The position numbers and the translations under genes are program-made. From a virus: a stretch of 56,578 nt of DNA. Shown piece after piece: positions 1,170-56,578 of this stretch; position 1 is the first letter of the stretch, and every line of letters begins with the position of its first letter. Below the pieces are notes generated by a model that searched no databases, was not told the DNA's origin, and saw only the letters and a program-made list of their open reading frames with translations. The stretch is from positions 1 to 56,578 of IMG/VR virus record IMGVR_UViG_3300046616_000274. One strand, written 5' to 3'.

Positions 1170-1396
1170 GGCTGCGCCTAGCACCGGAGGTAAGAGCCGG
1201 TGCAGTGAATTGCAGCATTGCCTACGGCAGACACTGACAACAAGGGATTCCGCAGCACAACGGAAGCGCACGTGACTGATACTCGCGTGACTTTGGGTTG
1301 ATGCCTAGGGCCCTGAGTCGTGTCTGTCGGGGGGAGTGTCGTCAAGGCACTTGCAAGGGCTCTGTAAGGGCCGTACGGCTATCCCTAGGGGAAGCA

Positions 1397-1702
1397 ATGG
1401 CAACAGCAGTGGTGGACGTTCCGACCGCACGTCGGAAGCGTGAGTCCATCCCCCTCCGGTCCTTCGGTTTCTGGACCGAGTACAACCGACACCCGCTCTT
1501 CCGAGTGAGCGTGCTCGGGGAGGGTGCACGAGAGCCGTTCGTCTATGACGTCCGGGCATTCGGCAACATGGTTGCGTCGGTCCGTGCATTCGCTGAGTGC
1601 GCGGGACGTACGAGCCTGTTGACGGCGGGACTGGCAGACATCTACCGCACCGGGTACGGAGTGGTGAACGGGTACCAAATCCGAGTCACCCCCCTTTCCT
1701 AA
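1397..1702 (+). CDS. Hypothetical protein, first left-arm gene
   Basis: 101 residues. The start is ATG 1397, preceded by AGGGGAAG; an in-frame TTG at 1298 would add 33 residues of leader-like composition and is not preferred. The N-terminus is basic (RRKRES), followed by a mixed alpha/beta-looking body with FGFWTEY and a C-terminal YGVVNGYQIRVTPLS. No family recognised. It is the first gene after the long leader and is followed 24 bases later by an ATGAGTAG-loop hairpin. Confidence 0.7.
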   Translation: MATAVVDVPTARRKRESIPLRSFGFWTEYNRHPLFRVSVLGEGAREPFVYDVRAFGNMVASVRAFAECAGRTSLLTAGLADIYRTGYGVVNGYQIRVTPLS

Positions 1703-13337: not shown

Positions 13338-14867
13338 TTAGCTGTTGAGGAGAGCGGTAAGCACTCCCGCCATGTAGGAGTGACCAGCGTCAGAAACAAG
13401 CACGGCGTCAGTTCCTGCCGTGCCGGGGGCAGACGAGTTGCCCCAGTAGCCGAGCGAATTCCAGAAGTTCCAGGAGTTACGGCCGAGATTCCAGAAGTCG
13501 ACCACCGCGGCTTCAAATGTGTTCGCCAGGGCGTACGTCCGGTCAGCGAAGTCCTGGAATCGGTACCCCTGCAAGTCGGCAAGGCCGATGTGAGGCAGCA
13601 CAAAGACAATGTCAGTGGCTCCCGTATTCGAACCGCCGTCCTTGACCTGGGAAAGGTGCTGACGGACCTGGGAAGCCCAGGTGTCGACGGCAACACCGTC
13701 AATGACGTCCTGAACGCTTACGCCATAGATCAGGAGATCAGCAGGGTACTGGCCCCCACCGTTCCAATCGACCTTCCCACTCGGGAGGTACTGAGCGGCA
13801 TTCGCATTCTTCTTACCGAAGTTGTTGACCACAACGCCGGACGAGTTCTCAGCGCTCACACCACAGAGGGAGAGGTACTTTCCAGCGGTACCCGTGTGCG
13901 TGATCTTGACCGTGTGGGAACCGGCGCTCAGGCCGGTGACAGTCGTCTTGAGGACCGTCAGACCGGTAGAGGTCGAGTCGGTGACAGTGACCGCCGTAGC
14001 TCCGTCGATGGAGTACGTCCAGGAGGAGCGGTTCCCGTCGCCTCCCAGGGTGTAGATGGTCACCGAGGTGCCGCGTACGGTCCAGGTCATCGAGCTGCCG
14101 TTGGTCGAGCTGTAGACGTAGCCCCAGCCCGGTCCTACGGGGTAGCCACCGACCGCCCAAGTGCCCGTCTGGGCAACGAGGCCTCCACTGGAAGTCCATT
14201 GGGTGATAGCCGCTGAGTCGTTGCCCGCAATGCCGTTGGCGCTGACGAGAGCGGAGACGAAGCCTGAGCCCCCATCTCCGTTGACGCTCTGGACACTGGC
14301 CCCCAGGACACCGGGCCAAGACTTGGTCACGAGGTTGGAGGCGTAGAAGCCGACAGCGGTAGAGCCTCCGATGACAGCAATGGACGCCTTACCCGTTCCG
14401 GCCTTCGCTGCGGCCCTCTTGGGGCGCCAGAACTCCCCCCACTGTCGAGGGACGGCAACACCCTTACCGGTGGCCTTGCCGTTGGGGGTCACCAGCCAGC
14501 CGGCATCCGAGAGCTTCACGAAGGTGGCGTCCGCGTAAGCCCGGTCCCCGTGAGGGTCCGGGACGAGGTTCGCAACGTGGTTCTTCAGTCGGGTGCCGAT
14601 GTCGATTGGGGTGATGGCGACTCGGCCAGCCCCAAAGTCCACCCACAGAACCTCAACACCATCCGGACCGTTGAAGGTTGGGATCATTCCCTGATCGTTG
14701 GCAACGAGCTGACCAATCGCATTGCCGTTAGCGTCGGTAAGGTCCGTGAGCTGTGCCGCGCTCATTCCAGGACCGTCCCAGACGGTACCCATTGCACCTG
14801 GCACACGAGAGCCGTTGACGCTCTCGGCTACGTCAGAGGCAGTGCCCCCGAACTGATTACGAGCCAT
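13338..14867 (-). CDS. Minor tail protein with SGNH/GDSL hydrolase domain
   Basis: 509 residues. An N-terminal structural part (to about residue 150) leads into an SGNH-hydrolase-like domain: IAVIGGSTAVGFY (block with nucleophile Ser, about 165) and a C-terminal DAGHSYMAG (DxxH, about 494). A beta-rich insert (about 240-330) interrupts it. Such tail domains deacetylate or de-esterify surface glycans at adsorption. It lies in the baseplate/fibre cluster. Substrate unknown. Confidence 0.7.
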   Translation of the reverse strand: MARNQFGGTASDVAESVNGSRVPGAMGTVWDGPGMSAAQLTDLTDANGNAIGQLVANDQGMIPTFNGPDGVEVLWVDFGAGRVAITPIDIGTRLKNHVANLVPDPHGDRAYADATFVKLSDAGWLVTPNGKATGKGVAVPRQWGEFWRPKRAAAKAGTGKASIAVIGGSTAVGFYASNLVTKSWPGVLGASVQSVNGDGGSGFVSALVSANGIAGNDSAAITQWTSSGGLVAQTGTWAVGGYPVGPGWGYVYSSTNGSSMTWTVRGTSVTIYTLGGDGNRSSWTYSIDGATAVTVTDSTSTGLTVLKTTVTGLSAGSHTVKITHTGTAGKYLSLCGVSAENSSGVVVNNFGKKNANAAQYLPSGKVDWNGGGQYPADLLIYGVSVQDVIDGVAVDTWASQVRQHLSQVKDGGSNTGATDIVFVLPHIGLADLQGYRFQDFADRTYALANTFEAAVVDFWNLGRNSWNFWNSLGYWGNSSAPGTAGTDAVLVSDAGHSYMAGVLTALLNS

Positions 14868-14878
14868 GTGCTACCGCC

Positions 14879-15943
14879 TTATTCGTTGAACTCGTTTGCC
14901 TCAATCACTCCTGAGATGGAGAAGGTTGAGCGGGCAGGGAACTGTCGAAGGCCGTCGAGACCTTCGGCAAGGTTGTTGTAGTTCTGTGTGTTGAGGAAAA
15001 GGATGTTGGAGCCCGGCTGAGTGGTGGCGGTAATGGCCAGCATGTTGGGCAGTCCGCCGCTGTAGTACGGGTTCGACAGGTAGCCGTGAAGGACCTGAAT
15101 CGACTTGGGGTTGCAGTTGATAGGCAGGGTGATGCCGGCGCGGGTATTGCTACCGGTCACCCCAATGCCCTGATCCTCGTAGTCATTGACGATCGTTGCC
15201 GAGAACCAATAGGTATTCGGTGCGATCCAGCGGTACCGTCCACGCCTGTTGGCAGTCGGCACAGAGCCGACGTACAGAGCGCTCGGGGTGTACGTGGAAC
15301 TCTTGCTGAAGTCCCGAGTCTTCACGTAGCCGTCTCGGCCCCTCCAGGACTCGCGCTGAACTCCACCACCGTTGTTGTCCATGTCGATGGAGAAGGCGCC
15401 GCGAGGCGTCAGAGCGGCGCTGTCATCCGCGTTCCAGGGGAAGGCGACGGTAGGCGGCACGAGGTACGGGCCACGGCGAGAGACGGCAACGGTGCCGTTG
15501 TTGGCGGGGACGTCCACCGAGTAGAGCGGCATTTCCCAGGCTGCACCGGACTGCCGGGACGGAGTTGGGTCGAGGGGAGTCGTCGCCGCGATGCCCTGTA
15601 CGACGGCGAGTTGAACCGCGCTCTTAGCCATGTCGGCCCGGATGACTACCAGGTCCTTACGGCCCTTCGCAGTGTTGTTGTCGGCAATGGTGAACGTCTT
15701 GGTACCGGTGAGCTTGTAGTAGAAGCCCCCGACCCAAGCGGTACCCGCACCGATGGTGACGTTGCGGCCGTTCGTGGTCGCGGTAAAGGGCAGATCGGCA
15801 GTCGCATAAGTGCTGTTGACTAGCGGGAAGTCCAGGTGGTCATTCGTCCACGCAAGGGCCATCTGTTGCCACTGCGTCTGGGAAACAGCCTGTGCCCCAC
15901 CATTGGCGTTGTCCGCATCAAAGGGGTAACTCAGCTCAGTCAT
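14879..15943 (-). CDS. Minor tail protein
   Basis: 354 residues, beta-rich and Gly/Asn/Thr-rich, starting MTELSYPFDADNANGGAQAVSQTQW, an N-terminus typical of actinophage baseplate or receptor-binding proteins that join the tail tip. No enzyme motif. It lies between the Gp37-like protein and the SGNH-hydrolase tail protein, so it is probably a fibre or adaptor component. Confidence 0.7.
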   Translation of the reverse strand: MTELSYPFDADNANGGAQAVSQTQWQQMALAWTNDHLDFPLVNSTYATADLPFTATTNGRNVTIGAGTAWVGGFYYKLTGTKTFTIADNNTAKGRKDLVVIRADMAKSAVQLAVVQGIAATTPLDPTPSRQSGAAWEMPLYSVDVPANNGTVAVSRRGPYLVPPTVAFPWNADDSAALTPRGAFSIDMDNNGGGVQRESWRGRDGYVKTRDFSKSSTYTPSALYVGSVPTANRRGRYRWIAPNTYWFSATIVNDYEDQGIGVTGSNTRAGITLPINCNPKSIQVLHGYLSNPYYSGGLPNMLAITATTQPGSNILFLNTQNYNNLAEGLDGLRQFPARSTFSISGVIEANEFNE

Positions 15944-31550: not shown

Positions 31551-31558
31551 CATGACGG

Positions 31559-31632
31559 TCTGACTGGCAGGTCTCGAACCTGCCGCCTCTCGCTCCCAAA
31601 GCGAGCGCTCTACCTACTGAGCTACAGCCAGA
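31559..31632 (-). tRNA. tRNA-Pro(TGG)
   Basis: Acceptor TCTGGCT/AGTCAGA, D-arm AGCTCAGTAGGTAGAGC, anticodon stem CTCGC/GCGAG with loop TTTGGGA giving TGG, T-arm GCAGGTTCGAGACCTGC. CCA is not encoded. Confidence 0.92.
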
Positions 31633-31634
31633 AG

Positions 31635-31727
31635 ACGGGGAGCCGGACTTGCACCGGCCCCCCTCCTGTTCCCCGAGGTGACTAGCCTTGGCTACTAGGG
31701 AGGGGCTCACTCGTGAGCTTTCCCCTT
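31635..31727 (-). tRNA. Degenerate class II tRNA-like sequence
   Basis: About 93 bases: acceptor AAGGGGA/TCCCCGT (one mismatch), D-like arm GCTCA-CGAG-TGAGC, a long variable region, and T-arm GCCGG-TGCAAGT-CCGGC (G in place of the usual second T). The anticodon arm is odd: CTAGT/GCTAG with loop AGCCAAG has no T33, so no isotype can be assigned. Likely a decayed or highly divergent tRNA. Confidence 0.4.
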
Positions 31728-31768
31728 GCCCTATCGTTGCGGCGGTCAGGCCGCTATTTTCGGACCGA

Positions 31769-31844
31769 GCTGGGCGGGCCGGAATCGAACCGACGCCTTT
31801 CGGTTTTGGAGACCGATTGTGCTTCCATTTGACACAACCACCCA
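31769..31844 (-). tRNA. tRNA-Trp(CCA)
   Basis: Acceptor TGGGTGG/CCGCCCA, anticodon stem TCGGT/ACCGA with loop CTCCAAA giving CCA, T-arm GTCGGTTCGATTCCGGC. CCA end not encoded. Confidence 0.9.
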
Positions 31845-31846
31845 TT

Positions 31847-31905
31847 GCGAGGAAGCCGCTGTCTCACAGCGCCCGGGGAGTGCATGCCCCACATATGTTC
31901 CTCGC
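31847..31905 (-). ncRNA. Structured spacer: three-way-junction fold
   Basis: Between tRNA-Trp and tRNA-Lys, GCGAGGAA (31847-31854) pairs perfectly with TTCCTCGC (31898-31905). Inside lie CGCTGT-CTC-ACAGCG (31857-31871) and GGGG-...-CCCC (31875-31890). Sixty bases thus fold into a closed three-way junction. It may be a processing element or a tRNA remnant. Confidence 0.4.
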
Positions 31906-31909
31906 TCCG

Positions 31910-31982
31910 TGAATCTGGTTGGACTTGAACCAACGGCACCAGGATTAAGAGTCCCGTGCTCTACCAACTGAGCTACAGATTC
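31910..31982 (-). tRNA. tRNA-Lys(CTT)
   Basis: Acceptor GAATCTG/CAGATTC, D-arm AGCTCAGTTGGTAGAGC, anticodon stem CGGGA/TCCTG with loop CTCTTAA giving CTT, T-arm GTTGGTTCAAGTCCAAC. Confidence 0.92.
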
Positions 31983-32138
31983 AAGGACCCTCCTCCAGGG
32001 TCGAGCTGGAGTGTGAGGGCCTGCGCCGATTTCCCCGGCTCTGAATGTCCGGGCCACCTCGTGAACGCCAGGGTGCTTGCAGTCCCCGCATGCCCCCAAG
32101 TCGACCTATGGGGCAGAGGTGAAGACTGCGACTTCTTG

Positions 32139-32210
32139 GGCGCGTTACGGGATTCGAACCCGCGTTGCCTCCTTGAGGGGAGGAGTCCTGAGCCACTAGA
32201 CGAAACGCGC
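32139..32210 (-). tRNA. tRNA-Glu(CTC)-like with 6-base anticodon loop
   Basis: Acceptor GCGCGTT/AACGCGC, D-arm GTCTAGTGGCTCAGGAC and the flanking layout match actinobacterial tRNA-Glu. The anticodon stem CCTCC/GGAGG closes a loop of only six bases, CCTCAA, one short of normal. If T33 has been lost the anticodon is CTC (Glu); TCA is another reading. Function uncertain. The 150-base spacer before it (31983-32138) shows no gene. Confidence 0.65.
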
Positions 32211-32266
32211 GGTTCCTCCGTCACCTGATCAGGGCGAGTTTCAGAACCCGGGGAGCTACCCCACTG

Positions 32267-32339
32267 CTGACATGGCTGGACTTGAACCAGCAACACGCGG
32301 ATTAACAGTCCGCTGCTCTGCCAATTGAGCTACACGTCA
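32267..32339 (-). tRNA. tRNA-Asn(GTT)
   Basis: Acceptor TGACGTG/CATGTCA, D-arm AGCTCAATTGGCAGAGC, anticodon stem GCGGA/TCCGC with loop CTGTTAA giving GTT, T-arm GCTGGTTCAAGTCCAGC. Confidence 0.93.
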
Positions 32340-32349
32340 TTGGTACTTG

Positions 32350-32422
32350 CGCCCCTTACCGGATTCGAACCGGTAACCACCGGCTCGACAGGCCAGCGCT
32401 CTATCCGTTGAGCTAAAGAGGC
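32350..32422 (-). tRNA. tRNA-Asp(GTC)
   Basis: Acceptor GCCTCTT/AAGGGGC with wobble, anticodon stem CTGGC/GCCGG with loop CTGTCGA giving GTC, T-arm ACCGGTTCGAATCCGGT. Confidence 0.93.
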
Positions 32423-32471
32423 AGTGCCGGGGAGTAACGCTTTCCGGCTAGCGGGCGGGCGAGTTTAGACG

Positions 32472-32497
32472 TAGGAGTGTTGCCGCCATCACTCCTA
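32472..32497 (-). other. Hairpin in tRNA spacer
   Basis: TAGGAGTG (32472-32479) pairs perfectly with CACTCCTA (32490-32497), between tRNA-Asp and tRNA-Ile. Possibly a processing or termination signal. Confidence 0.4.
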
Positions 32498-32498
32498 G

Positions 32499-32573
32499 TT
32501 GGCCATCCAGGATTTGAACCAAGGACCTCCGCCTTATCAGGGCGGCGCTCTAACCTGACTGAGCTAATGACCA
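32499..32573 (-). tRNA. tRNA-Ile(GAT)
   Basis: Acceptor TGGTCAT/ATGGCCA, D-arm AGCTCAGTCAGGTTAGAGC, anticodon stem CCGCC/GGCGG with loop CTGATAA giving GAT, T-arm CTTGGTTCAAATCCTGG. Confidence 0.93.
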
Positions 32574-32576
32574 TTG

Positions 32577-32645
32577 GACGGTAGGGGTTGGGCTGCGGTC
32601 CAACATCGCATACACCTACCGTCGTCCCGTGTTCATAGACACGGG
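32577..32645 (-). other. Double hairpin in tRNA spacer
   Basis: GACGGTAGG (32577-32585) pairs perfectly with CCTACCGTC (32615-32623) around an inner TTGG/CCAA pairing; a second hairpin CCCGTGT/ACACGGG follows at 32626-32645. It lies between tRNA-Ile and tRNA-Phe. Confidence 0.4.
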
Positions 32646-32656
32646 AACCTCGTCTG

Positions 32657-32730
32657 CCGGACCCAATGGATTCGAACCATTGACCCCCGGGATTTCACTC
32701 CGGTGCTCTGTCCAACTGAGCTAGGGCCCG
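32657..32730 (-). tRNA. tRNA-Phe(GAA)
   Basis: Acceptor CGGGCCC/GGGTCCG, D-arm AGCTCAGTTGGACAGAGC, anticodon stem CCGGA/CCCGG (last pair A-C mismatched) with loop GTGAAAT giving GAA, T-arm AATGGTTCGAATCCATT. It abuts the HNH gene stop directly. Confidence 0.9.
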
Positions 32731-33386: not shown

Positions 33387-33402
33387 ATGTAGGTGTCCTC
33401 TG
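33387..33402 (+). repeat. 16-base repeat, copy 1
   Basis: ATGTAGGTGTCCTCTG here is identical to 56349-56364, in the same orientation 23 kb away. Both copies follow AT-rich sequence in noncoding DNA, suggesting a shared promoter or operator. Confidence 0.55.
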
Positions 33403-49273: not shown

Positions 49274-50467
49274 GTGGCAACAGTCCGCAAAGAAGACTGC
49301 GCCTGCCCCAAGGCCAAGAAGGCGACGTGCCGCCACAAGCCGTGGAAGGTCCGTTACCGGGCTCCGGGTGGCCGTGTCGGAAAGCAGCTTGAGGCGTCCT
49401 TCAAGCTGAAAGGTGACGCCGACGAGTTCGCTACGAAGGTGGAGCGGGACAAGTCCGTTGGGACGTATATCGATCCCAAGACAAGTGGTCGTCTGTTCTC
49501 CGATGTCTGGGATGAGTGGCTCGCGGCCGGCACTCGGGAGGCGTCCACCTTCGCCTCCTACAGGTCCACGTACCGGAATCACCTTGAGAAGCGCTTTGGG
49601 CCCAAGCCCATGGGCGCCATCACAGCGTCCGAGATTGCGGCGTGGAAGCGGGAGCAGGACGAGCGGTATGCAGCCTCTACGGCGCATCACCGCATGGTGG
49701 TCCTGAAGACTGTTTTTCGCTATGCACACGAAATGGAGATAATCGCGCGTAACCCTGCCCTCAGTCAGAGGCAGCGTGGGCGTACTACTCCTATCGCTCG
49801 GCAGGTCAAGCCGACCGAGATCCCTACAACGGGAGAGGTGACCGAGCTATTCGAGGCCATGTGGGGCCCTCTCCGGGCCTCCATCTGGATTCAGGCGGGA
49901 TCGGGTGCCCGAGTCGGGGAGAGCCTCGCAGTCAGCCGCACATCCATTGAGGCACAGCCGGGCCTCTTGAAGCTCTGGCAGCAGCTCACGACTCACGGAC
50001 AGAACGACGGCAAGAGCCGGGGGGTGGCCTTCAAGGACGAGCTGAAGTGGTCGCGAGAGGCTCGCATGACTCCGCTGAGCTACACCGTTCAACAGGCCAT
50101 CGACAGGCACAGAGAGGAGTACGGGGAGTGGGGAGACCATGGCTGGCTCTTCCAGAGTCCCAAGTACGCGGGTAGTCCCATCTCGTTCAAGTCGTACTCG
50201 GACCACTGGAACAAGGCTCTCAAGAAGGCCGGGCTGGAAGGCAGTGGGTACACCCCCAAGAGCCTTCGGCACTACTTCGCCTCTGTGTGCATCGCGGGGT
50301 CTGTGCCTCTGTTCGAGGTGGCTCAGTGGATGGGGCACAAGTCGACTCGGGTCACTGAGACGACGTACGCCCACCTCCTCCAGGACGCTCACACGAGGAC
50401 GATGGACGCGGTTGAGGTAGCAATCTTGGAGCATGCTCGACTCATGCTGTCCTCGCGTGCTGCGTGA
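49274..50467 (+). CDS. int: Tyrosine integrase
   Basis: 397 residues from GTG 49274 (GTAGGAGG upstream). N-terminal arm-binding part with a CACPKAKKATCRHK Cys/His motif, core-binding domain, then catalytic residues: Arg in GSGARVGESLA, Arg-His in SLRHYFAS, His in WMGHKS and Tyr in TTYAHL. The usual first His of HxxR is Lys here (TPKSLRH), as in some actinobacterial integrases. Inserts the phage genome at attB. Confidence 0.93.
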   Translation: MATVRKEDCACPKAKKATCRHKPWKVRYRAPGGRVGKQLEASFKLKGDADEFATKVERDKSVGTYIDPKTSGRLFSDVWDEWLAAGTREASTFASYRSTYRNHLEKRFGPKPMGAITASEIAAWKREQDERYAASTAHHRMVVLKTVFRYAHEMEIIARNPALSQRQRGRTTPIARQVKPTEIPTTGEVTELFEAMWGPLRASIWIQAGSGARVGESLAVSRTSIEAQPGLLKLWQQLTTHGQNDGKSRGVAFKDELKWSREARMTPLSYTVQQAIDRHREEYGEWGDHGWLFQSPKYAGSPISFKSYSDHWNKALKKAGLEGSGYTPKSLRHYFASVCIAGSVPLFEVAQWMGHKSTRVTETTYAHLLQDAHTRTMDAVEVAILEHARLMLSSRAA

Positions 50468-50899: not shown

Positions 50900-51721
50900 A
50901 TGCGCGTCCAGCGTACCCGTCACACGGGTAAGTACGTCCAGGTCCCTAACGGGATCGCACAGAACCACAGCCTGAGCCTTGAGGCCCGAGGCCTGCTGAC
51001 CTATCTCCTGTCGCTCCCGGACGCGAACCGCGCCACGGTCGAGCGCATCACTGCCTTGGTCCCCAACGGACGTCGGTCCGTCTCCAACGCCATGAGCGAG
51101 CTTGAGGCGGCGGGTCACCTCAAGCGTGCCCGCGTCCAGGACCCTGAGACGGGCCGTTGGGTCACCCTTACGTCTGTCTCTGACTCCCCGACCGACCACA
51201 TGCCGACGGTCGGTGTTCCGACTGGTCAGGTTGTCGGCTCTCATCCCAAGGAAAAAGACCTTGGGTGCAATGACCTCCCTACCCCGGAGCCCGAGGAGAC
51301 CGAGCAGCGGCCGGAAGGCCGCGCCGGATCGGGGGAGGGGGAGAAGTCCTCTTCCCAGGAGACGAACCCGCTCACAGAGCGAGCGGTGACGCTCCTGGAG
51401 AGGCTCGCCATTCACAACCACCGAGTCATGCTGTCGAGCCGAGAAGCTCGACGGCTTGCCCCGCTGGCCGCTGAGTGGCTCGCAGAGGGCATCCAAGAGA
51501 AGCAGCTCACTCAGGTGCTGACTGCTGCTCTCCCGAGCGCTGGTGTGGCCTCTGCTGCGGCTCTGGTGACCTATCGCCTCCGCAACCACCGACCGGAGCC
51601 GGTACACGCTCCGGAGACCTCTCAGGCCCCTTCCCGGGCTGTTCTGAGGCAGAAGTGCCCTGAGTGTGAAGTGATCTTCCCTCTCGGCCACCCCGGCGGC
51701 ATCTGCCGCTCTTGCCGCTGA
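50900..51721 (+). CDS. Winged-helix protein with C-terminal zinc finger
   Basis: 273 residues from ATG 50900. The N-terminal domain (YVQVPNGIAQNHSLSLEARGLLTYLLSLPD...VPNGRRSVSNAMSELEAAGHLKR) is a winged helix like those of plasmid replication and helix-turn-helix proteins in Streptomyces. A disordered Pro/Glu-rich linker and a helical domain follow, and CPECEVIFPLGHPGGICRSC closes with a zinc finger. Host- or plasmid-type rather than phage-type; role unknown. Confidence 0.7.
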   Translation: MRVQRTRHTGKYVQVPNGIAQNHSLSLEARGLLTYLLSLPDANRATVERITALVPNGRRSVSNAMSELEAAGHLKRARVQDPETGRWVTLTSVSDSPTDHMPTVGVPTGQVVGSHPKEKDLGCNDLPTPEPEETEQRPEGRAGSGEGEKSSSQETNPLTERAVTLLERLAIHNHRVMLSSREARRLAPLAAEWLAEGIQEKQLTQVLTAALPSAGVASAAALVTYRLRNHRPEPVHAPETSQAPSRAVLRQKCPECEVIFPLGHPGGICRSCR

Positions 51722-51766: not shown

Positions 51767-52543
51767 ATGTCTAGAGCTGTGCCCTGGTACATCAAGGCCG
51801 TGCTGTACGTCGCTATCCCTGCGGCCTGTGCCGCAGCGCTGTACCTCTCGATCCCGGGAGAGATCGCCCTAGCCAAGACGGCTGGTTGGTCTCACAGGTA
51901 CGCCCCTGCCATGCCGGTGTGTCTCTCGGTCTACGCCGCTGCGGCTGGTGCCATCTCGGGATACAGGAAGGCTCTCAAGCTCCCTGGCCAGAAGACGGCT
52001 CTCATCGGTGGCGTGATGGCTCTCGCTCTGGCGATGTCCGCTCAGTCGATCTCTCACCTGATCGAACAGGGGTACATGGAGACCTCCGCCAAGCTGGTGG
52101 TAGCTGTCTCATGCATCCCGCCTCTCGTGATCGCCCACCTGATCCACATGGCTGAGACTCCCTCTCAGGCCAAGAGCGCCACGGAGGAGCTGGAGGAGCA
52201 CCGCGGATTGGTCGAGTACCTCACGACTGCCCTCGTTGCCTCTGAGGCGGGCAGCGTCCTGACGTACGCCTCTCAGGTCCGGGTGAAGGTCGAGAGGGTC
52301 ACAGGGGAAGTGGCAGACCTCTCGGAGGACACCGGACGTCTCACGGTTGAGCTGGAAGAGGCCCTCACCGAGGCTGAGAAGGCCTCGGAGGAGAAGCGGA
52401 AGGCTCTCGTTGCCAGCCGCGAGGCCATCGAGAGGACTCGCAAGCAGCTTGAGAGGGCAGGCACTGAGAGAGTCACCGTCGCCAAGATCTGTAAGACGCT
52501 TGGGATCTCATCGGCTACCTATCACCGACACATGGCGGTCTAG
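51767..52543 (+). CDS. DUF2637-type membrane protein
   Basis: 258 residues from ATG 51767. Four hydrophobic segments in the first 130 residues (AVLYVAIPAACAAALYLSI, AGAISGYRK.., LIGGVMALALAMSA, LVVAVSCIPPLVIAHLIH), a long charged coiled coil (160-235), and a C-terminal HTH-like end (VAKICKTLGISSATYHRH). DUF2637 proteins occur in actinomycete plasmids and integrative elements near transfer genes. Followed 22 bases later by an ATGAGTAG hairpin. Confidence 0.75.
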   Translation: MSRAVPWYIKAVLYVAIPAACAAALYLSIPGEIALAKTAGWSHRYAPAMPVCLSVYAAAAGAISGYRKALKLPGQKTALIGGVMALALAMSAQSISHLIEQGYMETSAKLVVAVSCIPPLVIAHLIHMAETPSQAKSATEELEEHRGLVEYLTTALVASEAGSVLTYASQVRVKVERVTGEVADLSEDTGRLTVELEEALTEAEKASEEKRKALVASREAIERTRKQLERAGTERVTVAKICKTLGISSATYHRHMAV

Positions 52544-52564
52544 CGCGTAGCCGCTGAGACAAGA

Positions 52565-52601
52565 CGAAGGCCCCCGTCATGAGTAGGGACGGGGGCCTTC
52601 G
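52565..52601. terminator. ATGAGTAG stem-loop 6
   Basis: A 14-bp perfect stem (CGAAGGCCCCCGTC / GACGGGGGCCTTCG) with loop ATGAGTAGG (motif 52579-52586), between convergent genes. The longest member of the family, inside the accessory region. Confidence 0.75.
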
Positions 52602-52615
52602 CGGTTCTCAGTATG

Positions 52616-52828
52616 TCAGAGGCCCTGAGACTGGGCGAACGAGATGAACGAGGACCAGGCGCCGGGGCCGAAGGTGAGAGTCCCCGCCGCAGGGTCCTTG
52701 CTGTCCCGGACCGGAACGAGGGAGAGGCCGTCAACGACCTCAAGGCAACTCCCGTTGTCGCCCCCGCTATAGCTGCTCTTACGCCATCCCGTGAAGGCCG
52801 CTGTGTCTTGGATCTTGTCAGGAGTCAT
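52616..52828 (-). CDS. DUF397 protein
   Basis: 70 residues from ATG 52828. TGWRKSSYSGGDNGSCLEVVDG...VPVRDSKDPAAGTLTFGPGAWSSFI is a textbook DUF397 domain. Its start overlaps the stop of the XRE gene (ATGA), the usual pairing in Streptomyces, where these pairs regulate development or secondary metabolism. Confidence 0.92.
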   Translation of the reverse strand: MTPDKIQDTAAFTGWRKSSYSGGDNGSCLEVVDGLSLVPVRDSKDPAAGTLTFGPGAWSSFISFAQSQGL

Positions 52829-53700
52829 GTTTCGTAGTCCTCCGCCACCGATTCGAGCAGGTCTAGGGATGCATCCGGCGACATCGCAGCAGCCCGAGCC
52901 AGATCGTATGCGTCACGGCACTTCTGGACCATCGCCGGATCGTCAATGAGGTTGCCCGTGTGGAGGGCTTCGACGTACGCCAGCTCTGGAGCGTCTGCGA
53001 ACCGCATCAGACTGAGCATTGAACCCATGGTGGCATGTGCCCCTGACGAGTGCGGAACCACCTGAATACGGGTACGTCCAGACCGGCCCAAAGTGACGAT
53101 GTGGCGGAGCTGTTCCGCCATGACCTTTGCCCCTCCAACCTGCGCCCTTATGACGTTCTCGTTCAGGATGAACCACAGGGTGGGAGAAGCCGGGTCGTTG
53201 AGGATCTCAGCCCGCTTGAGCCTGTTGACAACCTGCCTGTCAACATCGGAGACCACGAAGTTCGGGCGTTGAGCGCGGTAGACCGCGAAGGCGTAGTCCC
53301 TGGTCTGAAGCAGGCCCGGAACCAGTGAGACGGCGTACTCACTGATGGAGAGCGCCTGTTGCTCCCATTCGAGTGCCTCGGCGAAGTGGTCCGCCACCGG
53401 GACGATGCTCAGCGTCCCCAGGAACCCCACGAAGAACCCGTCTGCGTCGAGCACCTCGTCAAGACGCTCAGCGTCCTTGACCTGCGGAAGCCGCCTCCCA
53501 GCCTCCATGTGGGCAATCATCGAAGCGGACATGGCCAGGAGCGCGCCCAACTCTGCTTGAGTCAGGCCCTTCGCCTCGCGTAACCGCTTCAGGTGCTGCC
53601 CGTAGCGCTCCCGGTTCGTTGCCTGACGCTCCTCGTTCGCAGAACTCGCCACAGAACGGCTCCTCTTGACAGTTGCATTGGAGAGCTGAGGGTCCTTCAC
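52825..53700 (-). CDS. XRE-family regulator with DUF5753 (Scr1-type) domain
   Basis: 291 residues from GTG 53700. HTH LKRLREAKGLTQAELGALLAMSASMIAHMEAGRR (about residues 37-70), then a DUF5753 domain with SEYAVSLVPGLLQTRDYA and QIQVVPHSSGAH-type features. Forms the classic two-gene regulatory unit with DUF397, sometimes compared to toxin-antitoxin pairs. It is divergent from the small-gene run leading to the graspetide locus and is a candidate regulator of it. Confidence 0.9.
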   Translation of the reverse strand: MKDPQLSNATVKRSRSVASSANEERQATNRERYGQHLKRLREAKGLTQAELGALLAMSASMIAHMEAGRRLPQVKDAERLDEVLDADGFFVGFLGTLSIVPVADHFAEALEWEQQALSISEYAVSLVPGLLQTRDYAFAVYRAQRPNFVVSDVDRQVVNRLKRAEILNDPASPTLWFILNENVIRAQVGGAKVMAEQLRHIVTLGRSGRTRIQVVPHSSGAHATMGSMLSLMRFADAPELAYVEALHTGNLIDDPAMVQKCRDAYDLARAAAMSPDASLDLLESVAEDYET

Positions 53701-53770
53701 ATGCTACGGCGCGAGAGCAACGCTTGGGGTACACAGAGTGAGCACGTCCCCCACGGAAGGTGTGCCGGCG
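53701..53770. promoter_or_regulatory. Divergent intergenic region
   Basis: Seventy bases between divergent genes (XRE leftward, small gene rightward). Must contain both promoters or overlap them; no clear consensus boxes are visible. Confidence 0.35.
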
Positions 53771-54037
53771 ATGGCCTCCCAGAGCAGAGACAACGAACTC
53801 CCGGCCACCTTGGTTGTTGAGGTCATGGAGATCACCAACGCCCTTGCGGGGGTGCTGGAAGAGGCTGGGATCAAGCTCCCTCAGTTCCATGCTCGGTTCG
53901 CACCGACCGAAAGCCGTGAGTGGGTTGTCCGACTCGGGGACTGCAACGTCCATGTTGGTCAGGCCCTCGTCAACCTCTGCCGGGACGGTGTGACCCTTCG
54001 GCAGAAGCACCCTGAGGAGTCAATCAATGCCAGGTGA
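53771..54037 (+). CDS. Hypothetical protein of Streptomyces type
   Basis: 88 residues from ATG 53771 (GGAAGG upstream; GTG 53738 is possible). ELPATLVVEVMEITNALAGVLEEAGI...WVVRLGDCNVHVGQALVNLCRDG resembles small proteins seen next to XRE/DUF397 genes in Streptomyces chromosomes. Function unknown. Confidence 0.6.
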   Translation: MASQSRDNELPATLVVEVMEITNALAGVLEEAGIKLPQFHARFAPTESREWVVRLGDCNVHVGQALVNLCRDGVTLRQKHPEESINAR

Positions 54038-54107
54038 CCCGAAGGACGTCTCAGAGAAGACCAAAAAGAAGAACGAGGAGAGCGAACACCAGTGGGGACG
54101 AAAGTAG
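54027..54107 (+). CDS. Small charged peptide
   Basis: 26 residues from ATG 54027, overlapping genes on both sides. Highly charged (EKTKKKNEESEHQWGRK). Supported only by tight overlaps. Function unknown. Confidence 0.4.
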   Translation: MPGDPKDVSEKTKKKNEESEHQWGRK

Positions 54108-54277
54108 GCCAGTGGCCTCCGGAGATCCGGCAGCGAGAGAACACCCCCCGATTACGGCGAGGTTGGAAGATCTCGCGGGATGGCTCCTTCTGGGGAGGCA
54201 TCCTGCTTGTACTGATCGCCGGGTCAATCATCTGCTACGTACTCGCACTGCTCCTTGAGTTGCGACAGGGACCATGA
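54092..54277 (+). CDS. Small membrane protein
   Basis: 61 residues from GTG 54092. A basic N-terminal half and one membrane helix (FWGGILLVLIAGSIICYVLALLL). Its stop overlaps the next start as ATGA. Role unknown. Confidence 0.55.
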   Translation: MGTKVGQWPPEIRQRENTPRLRRGWKISRDGSFWGGILLVLIAGSIICYVLALLLELRQGP

Positions 54278-54528
54278 CGCAAGAACCGGAGCAGGGGAGC
54301 AACCCCCTGGACGACCCTGACGCGCTCCGGCTGGTTCAGAAGCTATATCTCCAAGCCCGAGTCATGGCGAACGAGCTGAATGACCCTGAATACGTAAGCG
54401 ACACCTCGGCCGCCGACTGGCAGGAGTACGCCATCGGCCTTGGTCAAGCATTCCGAGGGCTCGATTTGCTCCTGATCCAGGGTGCCCCCTTCCCCGAAGA
54501 GTGGGTCTTGGGCATCACAACCCCATAA
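54274..54528 (+). CDS. Hypothetical protein
   Basis: 84 residues from ATG 54274. Acidic, helical (DALRLVQKLYLQARVMANELNDPEYV...EYAIGLGQAFRGLDLLLIQG). Last of the four-gene run that starts at 53771 and directly upstream of the graspetide locus. Confidence 0.6.
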   Translation: MTQEPEQGSNPLDDPDALRLVQKLYLQARVMANELNDPEYVSDTSAADWQEYAIGLGQAFRGLDLLLIQGAPFPEEWVLGITTP

Positions 54529-54714
54529 GTTCCGTCCCCATCGGACGTATTCGATCGATGGCTCTCCCAAACCAAGACCGGAAATCCCGGTGGGGACGGG
54601 TTAGACCCCTCCCAGTCGTCATGCCACCCCCGTGAAGACACAGGTAGGCGGCTGGGAGGGACGGCAAGGCGGCGCGGAGAACGAATCTCCGCAGTGCACG
54701 ACAGAGGAGACAGC
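54529..54714. promoter_or_regulatory. Leader of the graspetide locus
   Basis: 186 bases without a gene. GTCCCCA/TGGGGAC (54533-54539 / 54590-54596) and GCGGAGA-ACGAA-TCTCCGC (54673-54691) can form hairpins, the second just before the precursor gene. The precursor promoter probably lies here. Confidence 0.4.
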
Positions 54715-54906
54715 ATGGCAGCGTTTGCCCTGGCCTACGCCGAGCCCCGACAGGCGGAGGTCCCTCCGCCGTATGCGTTCGACCCCGAGCAGCAGGTGAA
54801 CGTACTTCCGGGCGGCGAGAAGGCCTCCGAGGATCTCGTCATCCTCATGAGTACGGGGGCGACGTCGAGCACGGCCGGCAGCAAGACCCACAACGACGAC
54901 GACTGA
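54715..54906 (+). CDS. Graspetide (ATP-grasp-modified RiPP) precursor peptide
   Basis: 63 residues from ATG 54715 (AGAGGAGA upstream). The leader has the conserved PYAFDPEQQ box of precursors paired with SAV_5884-type ATP-grasp ligases, followed by NVLPGGEKASED. The C-terminal core is rich in Ser/Thr and ends in acidic residues: STGATSSTAGSKTHNDDD, providing hydroxyl donors and Asp acceptors for omega-ester cross-links. Four bases separate it from the ligase. No protease or exporter gene is seen nearby. Confidence 0.85.
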   Translation: MAAFALAYAEPRQAEVPPPYAFDPEQQVNVLPGGEKASEDLVILMSTGATSSTAGSKTHNDDD

Positions 54907-54910
54907 CACC

Positions 54911-55873
54911 ATGACCGTTCTCATCCTCACGTCTGAGGAAGACGTCACCGCGGATCTGGTAATCAACCAGCTCGTTTCGCTGGGAACTCCGGTGATGCGC
55001 ACTGATCCTGAGCACTTCCCCGGCCGTGTGGATCTCACCGCCCGCGTCACTGCGGGCGGTGGGGTGGTTGGTCACATAGCCGACGACCGCCGCAGGGTCG
55101 AACTGGCCGACATACGGTCCATCTGGTGGCGTCGCCCTGGCCCTCCGGGGCATCTGGCGAACGAACAGAAGGAATGGGTATCCCTGGAGTCTGAGCGGGC
55201 GTTCTATGGAGCGCTTCGAGCGCTCGACGTCCCTTGGATGAACCACCCCGACGCCCGGAACCAGTCCCATTACAAGCTCTGGCAGCTCCGGACGGCCTCA
55301 AGGACCGGTCTGAAGGTGCCACAGACCCTGATGACCACGGTTCCCGGGGCTGCTGAGCAGTTCTCCGCTGGTGTGGGCCCCCTGATCGTCAAGTCAGTGT
55401 CCGGCCGACACCCGGAAGAGCCTCCCCTCACCCTCTCTACGTGTCGAGTGCCCTCCGATGCCGACTTCTCCCGGGTGGCAGAGGCCGCTACGTGCCTTCA
55501 AGAGGAGATCGACAAGCGCAGTGACGTCCGGCTCACCGTCGTAGGTGGCCACATGATCCCCTGTGTCATCACGAGCCCTGGCGCACTGGACTGGAGGTTC
55601 CTTCCGGTCGAGGAGTGCACGTGGGAGCTTGGAGACGTCCCCAAGGACGTTCGGCCGGCAGTGCTTCGGTACATGGAGGCCGCAGGGCTGGTGTACGCCG
55701 CCTTTGACTTTGCGGTGGACGCAGACGGCTCCTGGTGGTTCCTGGAGGCCAACGCTGGTGGGCAATTCGGCTTCGTGGAGATCGCCACAGGTGCCCCAAT
55801 CTCCCGCACCGTCGCAGAGTGGTTGACATGCCCTGGAGTACCGAGGCCGGGACGCGGTACCGTCGAGTCATGA
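54911..55873 (+). CDS. ATP-grasp peptide ligase (SAV_5884-type graspetide maturase)
   Basis: 320 residues from ATG 54911. The hallmark IRSIWWRRP (about residues 67-75), NQSHYKLWQLRTASRTGLKVPQTL, IVKSVSG, LQEEIDKRSDVRLTVVG and the ATP-grasp core AAFDFAVDADGSWWFLEANAGGQFGF (Asp, ExNxxGQ) are all present. By family it forms ester or amide macrocycles between Ser/Thr/Lys and Asp/Glu side chains of the precursor, via acyl-phosphates. All catalytic motifs look intact. Confidence 0.92.
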   Translation: MTVLILTSEEDVTADLVINQLVSLGTPVMRTDPEHFPGRVDLTARVTAGGGVVGHIADDRRRVELADIRSIWWRRPGPPGHLANEQKEWVSLESERAFYGALRALDVPWMNHPDARNQSHYKLWQLRTASRTGLKVPQTLMTTVPGAAEQFSAGVGPLIVKSVSGRHPEEPPLTLSTCRVPSDADFSRVAEAATCLQEEIDKRSDVRLTVVGGHMIPCVITSPGALDWRFLPVEECTWELGDVPKDVRPAVLRYMEAAGLVYAAFDFAVDADGSWWFLEANAGGQFGFVEIATGAPISRTVAEWLTCPGVPRPGRGTVES

Positions 55874-56250
55874 GCGCTCCGGGAAGCCACACCGCCTACA
55901 ACCCCTTGGTTGCCAAATACCCGATGAGTTGGCCTCCGCGAGGGTGTAACTGGTGTGGCGACGAAGAAATGATCTGGGCCTATCCCGTCGGCCATGTCAA
56001 TTTCCCCCGCGTAAATCCCGCAGATGGGGAAGAACTCACCATCGGGAATCATGCACAGCAGTGGTATGCCTGTGCACGATGTAAGACGCATATTGACGAA
56101 GGCCGCTTGGATGAATTGGCCGAAATCCTGGGAAAGCCTCAAGGCTACTGGGACCCCCTTATTGAGGCCAAACTCCAGCGTGCCGGAACGACCTGGGGGA
56201 TGTCCTGGACCAGGCGCAGGATGAAGGGGAACCGAGCGAACCCCCGCTAG
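55870..56250 (+). CDS. Small protein with paired Cys motifs, third gene of the graspetide locus
   Basis: 126 residues from ATG 55870, overlapping the ligase stop as ATGA, so co-translated. CNWCGDEE (about residue 25) and CARCKTHIDEGR (about 66) form a likely zinc ribbon. It holds the place where related loci often have a methyltransferase, but shows no SAM motif. Role unknown; could be a partner, tailoring or immunity factor. Confidence 0.65.
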   Translation: MSAPGSHTAYNPLVAKYPMSWPPRGCNWCGDEEMIWAYPVGHVNFPRVNPADGEELTIGNHAQQWYACARCKTHIDEGRLDELAEILGKPQGYWDPLIEAKLQRAGTTWGMSWTRRRMKGNRANPR

Positions 56251-56270
56251 ACAGTTGCTGTACCCAGGAG

Positions 56271-56296
56271 GCCCCGGCTCTAGTTGGCCGGGGCTT
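56271..56296 (+). terminator. Terminator after the graspetide locus
   Basis: GCCCCGGC (56271-56278) pairs with GCCGGGGC (56287-56294), followed by TTC. Confidence 0.65.
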
Positions 56297-56318
56297 CGTT
56301 GTGTCTAGAGGTCTCTGA

Positions 56319-56341
56319 GAGGGGGGTATAAAACCCCCCTC
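56319..56341. other. GC hairpin with AT-rich loop
   Basis: GAGGGGGG (56319-56326), loop TATAAAA, CCCCCCTC (56334-56341). It lies between the terminator and the 16-base repeat. Confidence 0.5.
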
Positions 56342-56348
56342 AATATAA

Positions 56349-56364
56349 ATGTAGGTGTCCTCTG
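56349..56364 (+). repeat. 16-base repeat, copy 2
   Basis: ATGTAGGTGTCCTCTG, identical to 33387-33402 and on the same strand. It follows AATATAA, an AT-rich stretch, again in noncoding DNA. Confidence 0.55.
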
Positions 56365-56578
56365 AGGCAGATCGGGACAGCAGTGTGAGGCACGGAACAT
56401 TATTGTTGCTACATCAGTAGTTGATGCAACGTTCCGAGGCCGGCAGGGCCCCAAGAAGGGGCCAGAAGGGCCCGAAAGGGACAAGAATCGGGTAACAGCA
56501 CAGCAACAAGTGATGTAACGTTCCCCGCGGCTTGTGCCCTTGTGAAATTGTTGATACCCGTACACGATGGAAGAAACA

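Follow-up and report, generated by a model that had tools for sequence, protein, structure and literature searches.

What are the genes of a peptide-modifying pathway doing at the end of a phage genome, do they really belong to it, and what could their product bring to a lysogen? The stretch of DNA analysed here (the window) is an IMG/VR virus record of 56,578 bases, collinear from end to end with the Streptomyces phage Success (NC_073472) in inverted orientation, and its positions 54715-56250 are occupied by a compact three-gene operon made up of tgmA, tgmB and a gene encoding a four-cysteine protein. It is, in our judgement, quite likely that this operon is a functional graspetide cassette carried as phage cargo; that judgement leaves aside any role in excluding other phages, no product has been seen, and expression in the lysogen is inferred.

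All three open frames are on the plus strand, exactly at the positions that the first-pass annotation had given. The precursor gene tgmA (54715..54906, 63 aa) starts with an ATG at 54715, with GAGGAGA immediately upstream, and stops at 54904-54906. It is followed by tgmB (54911..55873), an intact frame of 320 aa for the graspetide synthetase, an ATP-grasp ligase, and by the four-Cys gene (55870..56250, 126 aa), whose ATG at 55870 overlaps the tgmB stop (ATGA); this overlap and the CxxC...CxxC motif agree with the co-translated Cys-motif protein proposed from the first inspection. A terminator-like hairpin closes the operon (56268..56297, plus strand; 12 pairs, RNA z=-3.5), and a sigma-70 scan of 52500-56578 found no promoter. 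Chance frames were considered and ruled out, all three genes recurring jointly in four other elements, mostly with low dN/dS.

The assignment to graspetides rests on the precursor and the ligase. TgmA has the leader box PYAFDPEQQ and a core with the C-terminal sequence ...TGATSSTAGSKTHNDDD, in which STAGSxTHxDDD is conserved across five phage loci (see below); it matches PF14404 (Strep_pep) at 66.7 bits (E=2e-18, cut-off 25) and TIGR04186 at 25.6 bits, barely over the cut-off of 25. TgmB matches TIGR04187 with E=2.2e-97 and 326 bits, under the curated cut-off of 350, and its profile matches the solved graspetide ligases 9bou (best, E=7.5e-104), 5ig8, 5ig9, 7drm, 7m4s and 7mgv. In an alignment of nine ligases, K122, K161, R207, D266, E279 and N281 of TgmB are invariant, residues that we take to be catalytic from what is generally known of ATP-grasp enzymes. 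The precursor and intact ligase that the first-pass annotation had recognised from motifs are thus borne out by model searches and by alignment to solved ligases, and what is expected of a graspetide locus is present: an adjacent precursor with a conserved leader box, Ser/Thr donors and Asp/Glu acceptors, together with a ligase homologous to the MdnB/MdnC/PsnB/TIGR04187 enzymes with intact catalytic residues. The graspetide assignment is therefore supported, while cross-linking itself is inferred from homology. A weak similarity of TgmB to RimK (TIGR00768, 45.6 bits) would allow the ligase to act on another substrate, by the chemistry of RimK-type protein glutamylation, with tgmA only incidental to it; this is very improbable, as the similarity to graspetide ligases is far stronger and the ligase is strictly paired with a conserved precursor. 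Relatives of tgmB carry no annotation beyond 'MvdC/MvdD family ATP grasp protein', probably because the ligase falls below the NCBIfam threshold. Single-protein 8-mer patterns retrieved no close tgmB relative from IMG/VR and GTDB, and a search of IMG/VR with the A1 alignment of tgmB gave two loci. Distant ATP-grasp relatives of the window ligase (27% identity) occur in a Leptospira phage (KF114876.1, 59120-60067) and in a faecal phage record (MT835913.1, 8836-9795), and are possible further phage-borne graspetide ligases.

Does the segment belong to the phage? The first matched gene of the window (1298-1702) corresponds to Success gp92. On the cassette side, a gene for an HTH_36 replication-initiator-like protein (50900..51721, +) and one for a DUF2637-like membrane/HTH protein (51767..52543, +), which form the conserved phage flank of the slot, are followed by those for a DUF397 protein (52616..52828, -) and its partner, an XRE-family regulator with a DUF5753 domain that is divergent from the cargo operon (52825..53700, -). 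These four are the counterparts of Success gp9, gp8, gp7 and gp6, in conserved order, with 51% identity for the DUF397 protein and 81% for the XRE regulator. The tyrosine integrase (49274..50467, +) is 44% identical to that of Success and 86% to that of contig L028. The last 23 bases of the window (ACCCGTACACGATGGAAGAAACA, 56556..56578, +) recur at the physical ends of Success and Ponzi, and the end of phage Ibantik resembles them less strongly. In addition, in a related prophage (L014), whose terminase is 86% identical to that of the window, the joined phage end comes after the trio, and beyond it lie relatives of the opening genes of the window and Success, so that phage genes lie on both sides of the trio. 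Its terminase large subunit is split across two overlapping frames (G001 13989-15550), and this prophage may be decaying, or the split may be a frame error of the assembly.

Since Streptomyces commonly has tgm loci and XRE-DUF397 pairs, the segment could in principle be host DNA joined by misassembly or imprecise prophage excision, and the cassette an ordinary chromosomal tgm locus. Such an origin is scarcely credible in view of the conserved regulator pair, the end of the record at the phage terminus, the phage genes around the L014 trio and a third gene found in phage elements only. Host contamination is thus excluded, as far as sequence allows, by the synteny with Success, the shared terminus and the L014 flanks; the phage location given by the first-pass annotation stands, and the chimeric assembly with host DNA that it had named as a possible refutation is contradicted.

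The cassette is not restricted to one phage type. When plasmids were searched by tblastn, three Streptomyces records had the ligase, at 64-71% identity, and these three alone had the four-Cys gene. The trio is present in five Streptomyces elements, namely the window, L014, the NBC_01240 and NBC_01238 plasmids, and pRLB1-9.1. The NBC_01240 'plasmid unnamed3' carries terminase, major capsid, tape measure and ParA/ParB genes, and NBC_01238 unnamed3 is its near relative (as judged from the region around the cassette only); a portal protein (E=1e-137) and a baseplate are encoded by the 154-kb pRLB1-9.1, which is itself an IMG/VR record. All five elements are phages or phage-plasmids, of at least three lineages: the window terminase has no match in the phage-plasmids, which separates at least the Success, the 88-90 kb and the 154 kb types, the last two not having been compared with each other. 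In a tree including the ligase of a Streptomyces chartreusis plasmid (L009, 48% identity) and methyltransferase-associated ligases (35-37%), the five phage ligases form one clade (support 98/0.998). The window ligase is closer to that of pRLB1-9.1 (70%) than to that of L014 (60%), which is of the same phage type, and this suggests from sequence comparison that the cassette moves between phages; the node joining the window and pRLB1-9.1 has weak support (54). Values of dN/dS range from 0.17 to 0.39 for tgmB (mostly 0.2-0.4), from 0.29 to 0.80 for tgmA, where 0.8 comes from the near-identical NBC_01240/NBC_01238 pair with very few changes, and from 0.27 to 0.65 for the third gene where unsaturated, several comparisons being saturated. 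With most tgmB values at 0.2-0.4 and most of those for tgmA and the third gene at 0.3-0.65, they indicate purifying selection on the genes of the trio.

The third gene sets these loci apart. Its product, of 112-134 aa across the phage loci, bears the motif C26xxC29 ... C68xxC71, in which 38 residues separate the CxxC pairs; it accompanies tgmAB in all five phage elements, and was found in no other locus searched. No convincing family match was obtained in Pfam, NCBIfam or PHROG, the predicted structure is poor (pLDDT 56) and gave no Foldseek match at E<0.001, and Padloc returned no defence model for either tgmB or the four-Cys protein. A profile search of GTDB genomes yielded nothing confirmable, which is weak evidence, because the search hangs on two short patterns. 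The protein is probably zinc-binding, on the basis of the CxxC pairs alone, and it may be a partner of the ligase or peptide, or an immunity or target-binding factor, as inferred only from its position and co-occurrence. For a partner role there is a precedent in rosaritide, with its MirC (PMC13097080), but it is no more than an analogy.

In all five loci the four-Cys gene occupies the place that the methyltransferase (TIGR04188) has in ordinary loci. The window, L014, Success and the three plasmid records all lack a TIGR04188 match above cut-off; NBC_01240 gave a single match of 16 bits, below it. In conventional plasmid loci, by comparison, the methyltransferase comes directly after tgmB (4/4 checked), and in conventional tgmB loci of IMG/VR (L069-L081, host flanks not excluded) a PAMT-like frame overlaps or follows tgmB in 12 of 13, the thirteenth stopping at the contig edge. 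The graspetide reading of the first-pass annotation thus gains the support of family models but has to be refined: the cluster lacks the PIMT/PAMT methyltransferase of group 13 graspetides (graspimiditides) and has the four-Cys gene in its stead, and the ligase scores below the NCBIfam cut-off. Graspetides themselves are known; what is new here is a phage-borne cassette that lacks the methyltransferase and encodes a new protein beside the ligase.

How does this compare with characterized systems? Group 13 loci (fuscimiditide, amycolimiditide, albusimiditide; tgmA-tgmB-tgmC) share with the window a TIGR04186-type precursor, a TIGR04187-type ligase and the same order, and some also have DUF397/DUF5753 neighbours (PMC13097080, PMC13001092), but they encode a methyltransferase where the window has the four-Cys protein, and the methyltransferase-associated ligases sampled share no more than 35-37% identity with that of the window. 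The S. chartreusis plasmid locus L009, with its core ...TTTSTAGSKTHFDD, has the ligase at 48% identity, yet it lacks the four-Cys gene, is in no recognised phage and has a ligase above the TIGR04187 cut-off. In the partner-dependent rosaritide mir locus (group 21), an extra protein is co-encoded with the ligase, as in the window (an analogy only); that partner is a predicted PpiC-type isomerase (TIGR04500), whereas the four-Cys protein matched no NCBIfam model, and mir includes a PCAT exporter.

The cassette lies in a slot between the DUF397/XRE pair and the genome terminus, and the content of this slot varies among relatives. In the window the trio is preceded by three small genes on the plus strand, at 53738..54037 (with a homologue, 66% identical, in the same slot of L043), 54092..54277 and 54274..54528 (both with homologues in L040 and L043). 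Success shares the collinear genome, slot, terminus and regulator, but instead of the graspetide trio its slot (266-2380) contains a radical SAM gene (gp3), a gene for a 38-aa peptide ending in GCGDDNPYN (gp2) and an APH-like kinase gene (gp1), annotated 'oxidoreductase', 'hypothetical' and 'kinase', which looks like a second RiPP-type cassette. Plasmid loci L019 and L021 have the radical SAM-peptide-kinase order too, and in five loci of this kind the peptide has a tail like (G)C-G-x-DNP(Y/F/H). A radical SAM protein 91% identical to that of Success occupies the slot of L040/L047, and L040 has the peptide and kinase as well. A different radical SAM/SPASM protein overlaps a TIGR04188-like methyltransferase (251.8 bits, cut-off 380) in L034 (13533-15774); it has a Cys-rich tail ending in ACNPAYN, possibly a fused precursor. 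Of the six XRE-DUF397 slots examined, five (window, L014, Success, L040 and L034) thus have a RiPP-type cassette, of three kinds in all, and the sixth, L043, has the pair without a clearly recognised RiPP cassette. Ponzi, L039, L042 and L045 have no DUF397-XRE pair there, and no RiPP cassette was detected in them by same-reference BLAST or annotation, without a family-model scan.

The cassette therefore meets what is asked of phage cargo (a moron), being inside a phage genome, with phage flanks, in a slot whose content is replaced in Success, L034 and Ponzi, and the accessory status claimed for it at the outset is strengthened by the other RiPP-type cassettes in this slot. It is tempting to go further and to see RiPPs as a dedicated accessory class of temperate actinophages, with a slot that exchanges maturation cassettes (graspetide and four-Cys protein; radical SAM, CGxDNPY-ending peptide and kinase; radical SAM and PAMT) whose products protect the lysogen from phages or competitors, but this remains tentative. 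Sixteen IMG/VR contigs (L047-L062) have a strong relative of the Success radical SAM protein; the next frame ends in C...(D/E/N)NP(Y/H) in 13 of them, and a kinase is found by BLAST in 10. TldD-type proteins mature some RiPPs; Success gp10, annotated 'metalloprotease' (L002 6456-6788, 110 aa), is similar to TldD/PmbA (PF19289) in the C-terminal part alone and may be a chance frame.

What would the cassette make? In the proposed scheme, a temperate Success-type Streptomyces phage would bear a swappable graspetide cassette between XRE-DUF397 and the terminus, in which the PYAFDPEQQ leader would be recognised by TgmB; this ligase is predicted to phosphorylate Asp side chains at the C-terminal end of the core. 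Ser/Thr hydroxyls would then attack the Asp phosphates and close as many as three omega-ester rings around SSTAGSKTHNDDD, a mass change of about -54 Da; these steps are modelled on known graspetide ligase chemistry (PMC13097080, PMC12291112). One to three rings are expected by inference from the three C-terminal Asp and the conserved Ser/Thr of TSSTAGSKTH, and a fourth would be possible if the C-terminal carboxylate participates. The four-Cys protein, probably zinc-binding, would replace the aspartate methyltransferase, acting as a partner or as an immunity or target-binding factor. The leader would presumably be removed by a host protease, since no peptidase or exporter was recognised among the family-scanned genes of the 50.9-56.3 kb segment.

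The biological function can only be inferred. The product would most likely act inside the lysogen or mycelium, for example by excluding other phages, and intracellular anti-phage lanthipeptides of Streptomyces offer a precedent (PMC12360287). Superinfection exclusion, or another intracellular benefit to the lysogen, is our first choice, though no more than a best guess that has not been shown. Could the product instead be a secreted, bacteriocin-like weapon that the lysogen turns on competing actinomycetes, the four-Cys protein conferring immunity? Weapons encoded by phage-borne BGCs have been reported (Dragos et al. 2021, as cited in the available excerpts of PMC10023795), and a unique third gene without known relatives, which could encode immunity, is co-encoded in all five loci; the scanned segment offers neither the exporter nor the peptidase of a bacteriocin cluster, and rosaritide, made by a TIGR04187-type ligase, gave no growth inhibition on its panel (PMC13097080), so that a weapon is possible but doubtful. 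It seems rather unlikely that the product or precursor is a signal or regulator read by XRE-DUF397 and tuning lysogeny or host development. The pair does adjoin the RiPP-type cassettes of the window, L014, Success, L040 and L034, and in S. coelicolor pairs of this type control both antibiotic production and differentiation, according to excerpts of PMC10364602, but L043 has the pair without a recognised cassette, and XRE-DUF397 may do no more than control the operon, or may be a regulator of the phage. Location of XRE-DUF397/DUF5753 genes near graspetides was already known (PMC13097080, PMC8939145).

Small BGCs in prophages, as in the window, were documented by a survey of actinobacterial prophages, in which antiSMASH detected BGCs in only 0.6%; class I lanthipeptides and T3PKS are named, and graspetides are not, in the excerpts available of that survey (PMC10023795). 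The literature on graspetides and phages, as far as its accessible text goes, yielded no report of a phage-encoded graspetide, which is not proof of novelty, and the word 'phage' is absent from the graspetide phylogenomics paper. Linking aspartimide RiPPs to biological function has been described as the bigger challenge (PMC13001092). The function of Streptomyces-type graspetides being open, a copy on a temperate phage provides a clean test, in which lysogens that have the cassette are compared with lysogens that lack it. One variant, lacking the methyltransferase and encoding a new protein, recurs in unrelated phages, which points to a function of relevance to the phage, and the alternation of radical SAM cassettes in the same slot suggests that small RiPP operons are under-counted as phage cargo. 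Ring-closed peptides look like regular phage cargo, because the trio recurs in unrelated Streptomyces phages and the slot of relatives holds other peptide-modification genes.

Two minor observations concern the rest of the window. The 15-mer TGTAGGTGTCCTCTG occurs in identical copies at 33388-33402, before the early genes, and at 56350-56364, near the right terminus; it is a possible operator, yet two matches (with up to three mismatches) are within chance, even though both copies are exact. Like Success, the window has eight tRNA genes, which lie at 31557-32730 (Pro, Trp, Lys, undetermined, Asn, Asp, Ile and Phe).
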